Assembly: GCA_021779935.1 (NCBI GenBank)
Contig: JAJXZT010000040.1
Span: 186,001 to 250,000, forward strand
Reading direction: 5' to 3'
Length of the DNA stretch: 64,000 bases
Source of the DNA: Acidobacteriota bacterium
Lineage (GTDB): Bacteria > Acidobacteriota > Terriglobia > Terriglobales > Acidobacteriaceae
Each line of letters opens with the position of its first letter. The first letter of the stretch is position 1. The notes beneath the pieces are model-generated. The model did not search any database. It saw only the letters and a program-made list of their open reading frames with translations, and was not told the origin of the DNA. Below are positions 12,323 to 24,751 of this stretch, piece after piece. A program made the position numbers and the translations under genes.

Positions 12323-12368
12323 CCCGGCCATGAATGGCCGGGCTATTTTCGTGCGCCCCTGACGGGGC
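12323..12368. repeat. Paired palindromes resembling an interspersed intergenic repeat
   Basis: Two adjacent hairpins: CCCGGCCA/TGGCCGGG with a TGAA loop (12323-12342), then GCCCC/GGGGC with a TGAC loop (12355-12368). They are separated by an AT-rich linker ending in TTTTCG. Their form is that of the small interspersed palindromic repeats common between genes in acidobacterial-type genomes. Whether other copies exist cannot be seen in this window. Confidence 0.6.
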
Positions 12369-12375
12369 TTGGTGA

Positions 12376-22762: not shown

Positions 22763-23227
22763 ATGGGTAAACGCCAGGCGATGAATTCGACCAGGGTTTC
22801 GTACACGCTGGAGTCCTCCTTGGAAAGCGTCAACAGGGCGGAACAAGCGGCCTATGACATTGCGATGAAGTCTGGATTCGACGAGGAAGAAGTCGGACGG
22901 ATTTCCATGGCAGTTCGTGAGGCGACGGTGAATGCCGTTTTACACGGCAACCAATACGATCCTCAGAAGCGCGTGACGGTCTCTTTCGAGACGTCCCCCG
23001 ACACACTGGCGGTGTCGGTTCGAGACGAAGGCAAGGGACTCAATCCGGGAATCATTCCGGACCCTCTTGCACCGGAAAATCTCTTGAAGGAATCAGGAAG
23101 AGGTATTTTTTTGATTCGGGCTTTCATGGATGAGGTGCGGTTCCGTAACATGGAGCCCGGAACGGAAATAACACTTATCAAGCACGTCCGCGGAGTGGAC
23201 CGCGACAACAAGGAGGATTCCAAGTGA
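22763..23227 (+). CDS. RsbW-type anti-sigma factor / serine kinase (HATPase_c)
   Basis: 154 residues (an in-frame ATG at 22781 is an alternative start). GHKL ATPase motifs are visible: N-box AVREATVNAVLHGNQ, G1-box VRDEGKGLNPG and G2-like ESGRGIFLIRAFMDEV. These match RsbW/SpoIIAB-like kinases that bind a sigma factor and phosphorylate an STAS antagonist. The next gene is exactly such an STAS protein, overlapping by 4 bases (GTGA). The sigma factor and upstream phosphatase of this partner-switching module are not in the window. Confidence 0.9.
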   Translation: MGKRQAMNSTRVSYTLESSLESVNRAEQAAYDIAMKSGFDEEEVGRISMAVREATVNAVLHGNQYDPQKRVTVSFETSPDTLAVSVRDEGKGLNPGIIPDPLAPENLLKESGRGIFLIRAFMDEVRFRNMEPGTEITLIKHVRGVDRDNKEDSK

Positions 23228-23571
23228 CGATGAAGGCGAGCACACGTCAGGTTGACGGAGTAACCATCGTGGACCTGAGCGGGCGCATCACTCTGGGTGA
23301 AGGCAGCGTAATTCTGCGCGACACAGTACGGGAAGTCGTCGGCCAGGGCAACAAGAAGATATTGTTGAATCTCGGGGACGTCACCTACATCGACAGCTCG
23401 GGAATTGGCGAGCTTGTCAGCGCATTCACCAGCGTCCGCAACCAGGGTGGCGAACTGAAGCTGCTAAACCTGACCAAGAAGGTTCACGACCTGCTCCAGA
23501 TCACCAAGCTTTACACCGTCTTCGACATCAGAGACGATGAAGCGGGAGCGATCAAATCTTTCACGAAGTAA
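23224..23571 (+). CDS. STAS-domain anti-sigma factor antagonist (RsbV/SpoIIAA-like)
   Basis: 115 residues, GTG start overlapping the kinase stop. The phosphorylatable serine sits in the conserved YIDSSGIGELV. The flanking GVTIVDLSGRITLGEG and LKLLNLTKKVHDLLQITKL are typical of STAS antagonists. The unphosphorylated form would bind the RsbW-like kinase and release its sigma factor or other client. A strong terminator follows, so the pair forms a two-gene operon. Confidence 0.92.
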   Translation: MTMKASTRQVDGVTIVDLSGRITLGEGSVILRDTVREVVGQGNKKILLNLGDVTYIDSSGIGELVSAFTSVRNQGGELKLLNLTKKVHDLLQITKLYTVFDIRDDEAGAIKSFTK

Positions 23572-23612: not shown

Positions 23613-23759
23613 CCTATTGCCGCCAGATAACAATTCCGTGTGATGCGCGCCCTTGTTCGACTGCGGGCAAGGCATTTCTGCTGAAGAGGCCGTATCCCTC
23701 GACAGCACATGGCAAGAGCGGGCAAAATGGTGACTCCGATCGTTGACCCAGGAGGCAGT

Positions 23760-24284
23760 ATGCGAATTCCCCGGCTGGATAGAGACCAGGTAGACGGCGA
23801 GACACAGAAGATTTTTGACAAATATCTCGAGGAACGCGGCAACGTGCCGAACATGTTCCGGACGGTGGCGCACCGACCGGAGATTTTCCGCACGATGATC
23901 GCGCACTTCCGGGCCGTGATGAACACGGGCACGCTTTCGCAGAAGCTGAAGGAACTGGTGATCGTACGGACATCGCAGATCAACCGCTGCGAATATTGAC
24001 TGTCTTCACACACCGCCTTGGCAAGGCGGCACGGATGGTCGGACGAACAGATCGACAACCTGGCGGATTTCCGCAACCGGACGGACTTCACGGATGCCGA
24101 GAAAGCGGCGCTGGAACTGGCGGAACGCGAAACGAGCCGACCACTGGAAGTCGACGATGCACTGTGGAGTGAATTAAAAAAATATTACAACGACGGCGAG
24201 ATCATAGAGCTGGCCGCGGCAATTGGATTGTTCAACTACTTCAACCGTTTCAACGATGCCCTGAAAATGGAGCCTACCAAGTGA
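23760..24284 (+). CDS. AhpD-like (carboxymuconolactone decarboxylase family) protein, probable selenoprotein with in-frame TGA
   Basis: 174 residues if TGA 23997-23999 is read as selenocysteine (residue 80). ATG 23760 is fixed by AGGAGG just upstream. The motif reads C77-E-Y-U80-L-S-S-H84 with Glu65 twelve residues earlier. This is exactly the spacing of the AhpD catalytic residues Glu118, Cys130, Cys133 and His137. Sequence on both sides of the TGA is family-typical: KELVIVRTSQINRCEY before, then HTALARRHGWSDEQIDNL and FTDAEKAALELAERE after. AhpD-type proteins are thiol peroxidases or disulfide reductases. A hairpin suited to a bacterial SECIS follows the TGA. The full-length stop overlaps the next gene's GTG. 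A nonsense mutation or sequencing error is the alternative. No selA/selB/selC/selD gene is visible here. Confidence 0.8.
24013..24029 (+). promoter_or_regulatory. Candidate bacterial SECIS stem-loop
   Basis: CCGCCTT (24013-24019), loop GGC (24020-24022), AAGGCGG (24023-24029): a perfect 7-bp stem. The apical loop begins 20 bases after the TGA and starts with GG. Known bacterial SECIS elements have a G within the first two loop bases and a loop about 16-37 bases from the UGA, so both criteria are met. The hairpin lies inside the coding sequence of the AhpD-like gene, as expected in bacteria. Confidence 0.65.
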
Positions 24285-24751
24285 AATTATCGAGAGTAGT
24301 GCCTGCGGTCCTGATGTTTGCGGCCGTGATGATTCTCGCTCTGCCGGTAATGGCAGCGGACGATCCGTGCATCCCTTTTGAAAAAGCACCGGAGTATATC
24401 GGCAAGAAAGTCTGCGTAAAGGGGACGCTGGTGCGCGTCTCCATGTTGAAGAGCGGCACGATGTTTCTCAACTTCTGCCAGGACTATCGCAACTGTCCGT
24501 TCACGGTGGTCATCTTCCGCAGCGACGCGCCCGATATCGGAGACTTGCGCGCGCTGCAAGGCAAGGAGATCCGGGTGGAAGGCAAAGTTCGCGACTACAA
24601 GGGGCAGGCGGAGATCGTGATGCGGGACCGCAAACAACTGCTGGTGGATTTCAACCGCGTTCCGCTGCCGGCCGAGTTTGATGCCACTCGTGACGACGCG
24701 GTGCGGCGTGGTGCGATGCCGCGTCAGGATCGTCGCGGACGGGCGTGGTAG
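24281..24751 (+). CDS. Exported OB-fold domain protein
   Basis: 156 residues, GTG start overlapping the stop of the AhpD-like gene by 4 bases, so translation is probably coupled. The signal peptide is about 1-25 (VVPAVLMFAAVMILALPVMA). Residues about 30-125 look like a small OB-fold/nucleic-acid-binding-like domain: EYIGKKVCVKGTLVRV, TMFLNFCQDYRNCPFTVVIF, LRALQGKEIRVEGKVRDYKGQAEIVM. Similar domains occur in exported nucleases and in stand-alone periplasmic proteins. Three cysteines after the signal (positions about 30, 46, 66, with a fourth at 72) could form disulfides. No catalytic domain is attached. Confidence 0.75.
   Translation: MKLSRVVPAVLMFAAVMILALPVMAADDPCIPFEKAPEYIGKKVCVKGTLVRVSMLKSGTMFLNFCQDYRNCPFTVVIFRSDAPDIGDLRALQGKEIRVEGKVRDYKGQAEIVMRDRKQLLVDFNRVPLPAEFDATRDDAVRRGAMPRQDRRGRAW

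Follow-up and report, generated by a model that had tools for sequence, protein, structure and literature searches.

AhpD-like selenoproteins with a CxxU motif have been described before. The "AhpD-like protein, TIGR01926, CxxU" is among the selenoproteins tabulated in PMC13188914, and the AhpD-like CxxU selenoprotein is given as COG2128 YciW in PMC9312934. The Global Ocean Sampling data contained 299 AhpD-like 1 selenoproteins (PMC2398784). The first-pass annotation of the present locus had stated that such proteins were reported from metagenomes. The counts in PMC1794560 include two AhpD-like (COG2128) selenoproteins and, separately, four selenoproteins of three families in Acidobacteria. 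This was the only paper on AhpD selenoproteins in Acidobacteria found in the open-access literature searched, where no paper on UGA-encoded selenocysteine in Acidobacteriaceae was found. Three known selenoprotein genes are given for Occallatibacter riparius (Acidobacteriota) in a part of PMC12013277 that does not name their families; thus, databases may already contain AhpD-like selenoproteins from this phylum. The M. tuberculosis AhpD contains a Glu118/Cys130/Cys133/His137 relay, and PA0269, an AhpD of P. aeruginosa, shows weak H2O2 reduction (both PMC3141380).

The gene studied here lies in a stretch of 64,000 nucleotides, which is referred to as the window (Table 1). The frame of 174 codons has a sole interruption, the TGA at codon 80. 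It ends at a second TGA (24282-24284), which overlaps the start codon (GTG, 24281) of the ORF that follows. When the codon 80 TGA is translated as a residue, the motif reads E65...C77-E-Y-U80-L-S-S-H84, with the TGA at the second position of CxxC. The relay spacings (E-12-C-3-U-4-H) equal those of the mycobacterial AhpD in the numbering of PMC3141380. Mechanical ORF calling split the gene into 23709-23999 (96 codons) and 24018-24284 (88 codons). Annotation is therefore likely to miss an active-site selenoenzyme shared by several families of this soil phylum. The first-pass annotation had described the continuous frame, the place of the TGA at the second Cys, the relay spacings, the overlap with the next gene, and the splitting into two fragments by gene callers; all of these points held on re-analysis. 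Its reading of a probable selenoprotein is also supported, by the Sec machinery, the homologue codons, and the covarying hairpin described below. The gene very probably codes for a selenoprotein of the AhpD fold and the TIGR01926 type, in which codon 80 specifies Sec.

Table 1. Features of the predicted selenoprotein locus, in window coordinates.
Feature	Position	Strand	Remarks
HATPase_c_2 (anti-sigma-kinase-like) gene, upstream	22763..23227	+	neighbour of many Sec-type orthologues
STAS-domain gene, upstream	23224..23571	+	neighbour of many Sec-type orthologues
Shine-Dalgarno-like AGGAGG	23750..23755	+	read directly from the sequence, ahead of the ATG at 23760
Predicted AhpD-like (CMD/TIGR01926) selenoprotein gene	23760..24284	+	174 residues, Sec at codon 80
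Codon of Cys77, the presumed resolving residue in CxxU	23988..23990	+
In-frame TGA, read as selenocysteine (U80)	23997..23999	+
Predicted SECIS-type hairpin CCGCCTT-GGC-AAGGCGG	24013..24029	+	stem 24013-24019/24023-24029, loop 24020-24022
Downstream ORF, weak DUF4431 and xseA matches	24281..24751	+	start overlaps the stop of the selenoprotein gene; some Sec-type loci have a homologue downstream

Profile searches gave one match each to Pfam CMD (PF02627; residues 40-122, 74.9 bits, cut-off 23) and to the TIGR01926 "peroxidase-related enzyme" (residues 5-173, 103 bits, cut-off 81.8), and both matches run across the TGA. By these curated scores, the protein is a member of the CMD / AhpD-like peroxidase-related family. 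The AlphaFold model had a pLDDT of 94.1 and a pTM of 0.87, and its best PDB matches were the AhpD-like peroxidase-related proteins 2prr, 6k40, 2pfx, and 2oyo (TMq 0.90-0.91). The model, these matches, and the residues point to a predicted AhpD-like all-helical fold with the Glu/CxxC/His relay. No match of the window protein to AhpD proper (TIGR00777), the partner of AhpC, was found at E <= 0.001; in an alignment of 20 members (the window protein plus 19 sequences from the 130 matched loci), two match this profile, with a best E of 2e-4. PA0269 (2o4d/2ijc) is alike in fold and in the spacing of the Glu/Cys/Cys/His relay, but it has CxxC where the window protein has CxxU, and the identity in the structural alignment is 32-33%. 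The debrominase Bmp8 (6ohi/6ohj) also has a similar fold (TMq 0.84-0.85), although its identity to the window protein is 22-24%, and reductive debromination is the activity of Bmp8.

Two profiles that name selenoproteins were rejected as the identity of the window protein. At E <= 0.001, every one of the 20 aligned members is matched by NF053654 (YciW-related / GroundWater_YciW (seleno)protein), but the window protein scores 96.8 bits against a cut-off of 310 and is not that equivalog. NF041238 (AhpD-related (seleno)protein CFYUT) aligns with the core of the protein; its model is 357 positions long, and the score is 43.1 bits against a cut-off of 175. Compared with the AhpD-like CxxU family (COG2128 YciW/TIGR01926), the window protein likewise scores over the TIGR01926 cut-off, contains CxxU with Sec for the second Cys, and coexists with Cys homologues. 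The window gene belongs to this already known selenoprotein family, to which a lineage-specific hairpin and an evolutionary history are added here. The family members in PMC2398784 are marine-survey sequences, whereas the present ones come from a group of Acidobacteriota and share a conserved hairpin of their own, often with HATPase/STAS neighbours; the exemplar proteins were compared by description only.

By analogy with AhpD and PA0269, Sec80 would pair with Cys77 in redox cycling, and the relay would comprise Glu65 and His84. Sec80 may reduce peroxide or another oxidised substrate, with Glu65 and His84 serving as the proton relay. A selenenylsulfide between Sec80 and Cys77, the resolving thiol, would be the intermediate, and the enzyme might then be re-reduced by a cellular thiol system.

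The genome that contains the window (4.49 Mb, 72 contigs, completeness 99.02) was placed in Acidobacteriota by inference from its named relatives, which are labelled Acidobacteriaceae, Terriglobales, or other Acidobacteriota. The first-pass annotation had proposed a search for selA, selB, selD, and tRNA-Sec, and all four were found in this genome. The SelA match scored 554.6 bits and the SelB match 381.3 bits (cut-off 242.25). The tRNA-Sec scored 66.6 bits in Rfam (gathering score 47), and its anticodon was called as tca, i.e. UCA, by ARAGORN. The SelD match (360.5 bits) contains one TGA in frame, within the motif KAAGUASKLS, and Sec decoding thus appears to be required by a further gene of the genome; this in-frame TGA of SelD lies in L018 1501-2424. 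As inferred from established knowledge, SelB would carry Sec-tRNA(Sec) to the ribosome at the UGA backed by the hairpin, so that the full 174-residue protein would carry Sec80.

The UGA might instead specify another amino acid: a recoded selC-type tRNA-Cys could insert Cys, for instance, or a reassigned code could give Trp. Cys is the residue of the other orthologues at codon 80, and both selC-type tRNA-Cys and allo-tRNAs, some of them from Acidobacteria, have been described (PMC7609411). However, SelA and SelD are present, the tRNA-Sec was called by both ARAGORN and Rfam, and SelD has its own TGA. Moreover, the selenoprotein gene itself ends at TGA, which argues against a global reassignment. 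Code reassignment was rejected on the Sec machinery and the terminal TGA, and reading as any other amino acid is considered highly improbable.

Codon 80 was compared among 110 related loci, which were drawn from two collections and include duplicates, since the same genomes were fetched from both. The codon was TGA in 30 loci, TGC in 68, and TGT in 12; thus, the in-frame UGA is aligned with the Cys of homologues. This alignment had been proposed in the first-pass annotation, and at precisely this site each of the 110 loci has TGA or a codon for Cys. No other in-frame stop was found in these 110 loci or in all 130 loci with a match. The sharing of TGA by 30 of the 110 loci, none with another in-frame stop, is more than would be expected by chance.

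Matches at E <= 1e-20 were found in 101 of 200 genomes of the order. Of these, 77 were taken as orthologue-level (best match >= about 140 bits, a score cut of our own); 29 contain one TGA inside the match and 48 have no stop. The remaining 24 genomes were excluded with best matches below about 140 bits, which are paralogue-level or partial (e.g. G111), and some of them hold a TGA (e.g. G186 and G095). SelB (E <= 1e-70) was found in 27 of the 29 TGA genomes versus 10 of the 48 Cys genomes (Fisher p = 3.7e-10, uncorrected for relatedness). It was not found at this threshold in the other two TGA genomes, G126 and G023; both have SelA matches, the one in G023 being partial and below the cut-off. 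Codon 80 is also TGA in each of the nine loci taken from the sister family (f2). In a sample of the phylum, 22 of 297 genomes were matched at E <= 1e-40, 14 of them outside the order, and 13 of these 14 matches contain one TGA, counted at any codon position. Several families within the phylum have the predicted Sec form.

The first-pass annotation had described the sequence after the TGA as family-typical and had named decay downstream as evidence against its reading. No such decay was seen: the profile matches run across the TGA, and in eight pairwise comparisons the codons after it are about as conserved as those before it. Compared with L052, for example, the part before the TGA has 32 identical, 30 synonymous, and 16 non-synonymous codons; the corresponding counts after it are 39, 33, and 22. 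This conservation bears on the possibility of a regulated stop, in which the UGA normally yields a 79-residue fragment and the downstream half is made from an internal start. A TTG start at 24018, which opens the 88-codon ORF, could serve this purpose. But that ORF would begin at residue 87, without the active-site position and His84, the conservation spans the whole frame, and the Cys-type orthologues are single open frames. An internal re-start was therefore rejected on the whole-frame conservation and the missing active-site residues, and is the least probable of the explanations considered.

A pseudogene or a sequencing error, in which the TGA would truly terminate translation or be a misreading of TGC/TGT, was also considered. 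A single base change from TGC or TGT to TGA suffices, and seven of the eight CMD matches in the genome are free of stops, which indicates that this enzyme type is independent of Sec. This explanation does not account for the recurrence of the TGA at codon 80 and in orthologue-bearing genomes, nor for the absence of further in-frame stops and the conservation after the TGA. It also does not account for a covarying hairpin, located 14-30 nt after the TGA, which accompanies TGA but not TGY. As a general account it is refuted by these observations, and for the window gene it is very unlikely.

The hairpin, with a stem of seven base pairs and a GGC loop, gives the selenoprotein reading direct evidence that was absent from the first-pass annotation. 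All seven pairs are formed in 23 of 24 distinct TGA contexts, versus a mean of 1.97 of 7 pairs at the same positions in distinct TGY contexts (n = 69). In 33 distinct Sec-type sequences, 97.8% of the hairpin cells are paired, and the covariation score (0.295, 33 Sec rows) was above all 500 shuffles and all slid registers. Two-sided changes were found in 24 cells (6.2 on average after shuffling, with none of 500 shuffles reaching 24) and in four of the seven pairs (reached by 13 of 500), together with seven further pair types (reached by 115 of 500). The GGC loop is present in 33 of 33 distinct Sec sequences, counted without L148, L149, and L151 and with identical 36-base stretches taken once. 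The fold of the window's own sequence was only moderately unusual (z -2.25, with 8 of 200 shuffles as good); the weight of the evidence for the hairpin rests on sequence comparison, not on the fold of a single sequence. The hairpin is accordingly classed as a predicted bacterial SECIS-type element, kept at a constant distance behind TGA but not behind TGY. The codon of residue 90 lies in the 3' arm; Arg stands there in 33 of 34 Sec rows versus 7 of 69 Cys rows, and this bias fits a coding footprint of the hairpin.

The SECIS-type hairpin lies immediately downstream of the UGA, with the exception of the close relative L023/L151 (genome G064, 77% identity), where the TGA is kept and only two of the seven pairs are formed. 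By eye, a shifted hairpin at L023 1750-1785 (- strand) may stand in for the missing seven-pair helix. In L149, an orthologue in G151, the match is split into two overlapping pieces and is apparently frameshifted, possibly by an assembly error or a real frameshift; its helix is intact, and the loop is GTT instead of GGC. The Rfam scan of the window at gathering scores gave no SECIS match, and the library may hold no bacterial SECIS model. A scan of viral contigs for the UGA-hairpin signature found 0 stretches, which excludes exact matches to the pattern only. Scans for promoters (2 versus 0.8 in shuffles) and terminators (3 versus 2.4) around the gene were near the shuffle level.

A quick maximum-likelihood tree was built from 103 orthologues and 7 selB-side paralogues, 110 distinct proteins in all, with columns 76-92 omitted. 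This set excludes identical proteins, matches shorter than 140 residues, and the loci L148 and L151, which repeat L025 and L023. The tree requires at least four changes between Sec and Cys when the paralogues are included, two of them forced by well-supported branches, versus about 32 with shuffled labels. All nine rows of the sister family are Sec. A small CxxC clade (L028, L057, L063) falls within the Sec group with moderate support, and its members have HATPase/STAS homologues upstream. Glu65, Cys77, and His84 are all present in 34 of 34 Sec rows. Among the 69 Cys rows, position 77 is Thr in 49 and Cys in 20, and 48 of the 49 Thr77 rows fall in one clade. In these TxxC orthologues (e.g. L043, L073, and L078), the partner (resolving) cysteine is replaced by Thr. 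The Sec, Cys-with-partner, and Cys-without-partner forms stand side by side as a natural test set for the contribution of selenium to AhpD chemistry.

A tentative history, which we hold to be possible rather than likely, is that the Sec AhpD-like enzyme is old and vertically kept in Acidobacteriota, tied to the HATPase/STAS pair. Loss of Sec would have left the neighbours behind in the family of the window, and in a large clade CxxU would have become TxxC. Hence, a two-residue redox switch might have turned into a single-thiol enzyme, which is not a plain Sec-to-Cys swap. With 50 of the 107 inner branches weak, any order of these events is tentative.

A more distant AhpD-like match was found within 2 kb of selB in 21 of 86 SelB genomes of the order; five of the 21 matches contain TGA, one of them also TAA. 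Six of the 21 copies (L141-L146) were fetched, together with L147 from G126, on whose stretch SelB was not found. This second group shares 31-37% identity with the window protein. TGA occupies the same motif position (CxxU) in five of the seven fetched copies (L141, L142, L143, L144, and L147), and L145 and L146, beside selB, have Cys there. The Sec copies have a different hairpin, (T)CGCTTC-GTC-GAAGCG(A), with a GTC loop at the same distance from the TGA; the outermost pair is unformed in L141. The second AhpD-like gene beside selB is thus predicted to be of the Sec type in some relatives.

The neighbouring genes were compared over 48 TGA and 82 TGY loci, including duplicates and seven paralogue loci; the sequence compared reached 800 bases or more upstream in only 32 of these TGA loci and 56 of the TGY loci. 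On this basis, STAS homologues were found at 35 TGA loci versus 4 TGC loci, HATPase homologues at 33 versus 4, and homologues of the downstream ORF at 17 versus 4. A link of the Sec gene to a partner-switch regulator is suggestive only. Elsewhere in the window, an Acido-Lenti-1 RNA (RF01687) at 12323-12369 was the only Rfam match (39.6 bits, gathering score 37).
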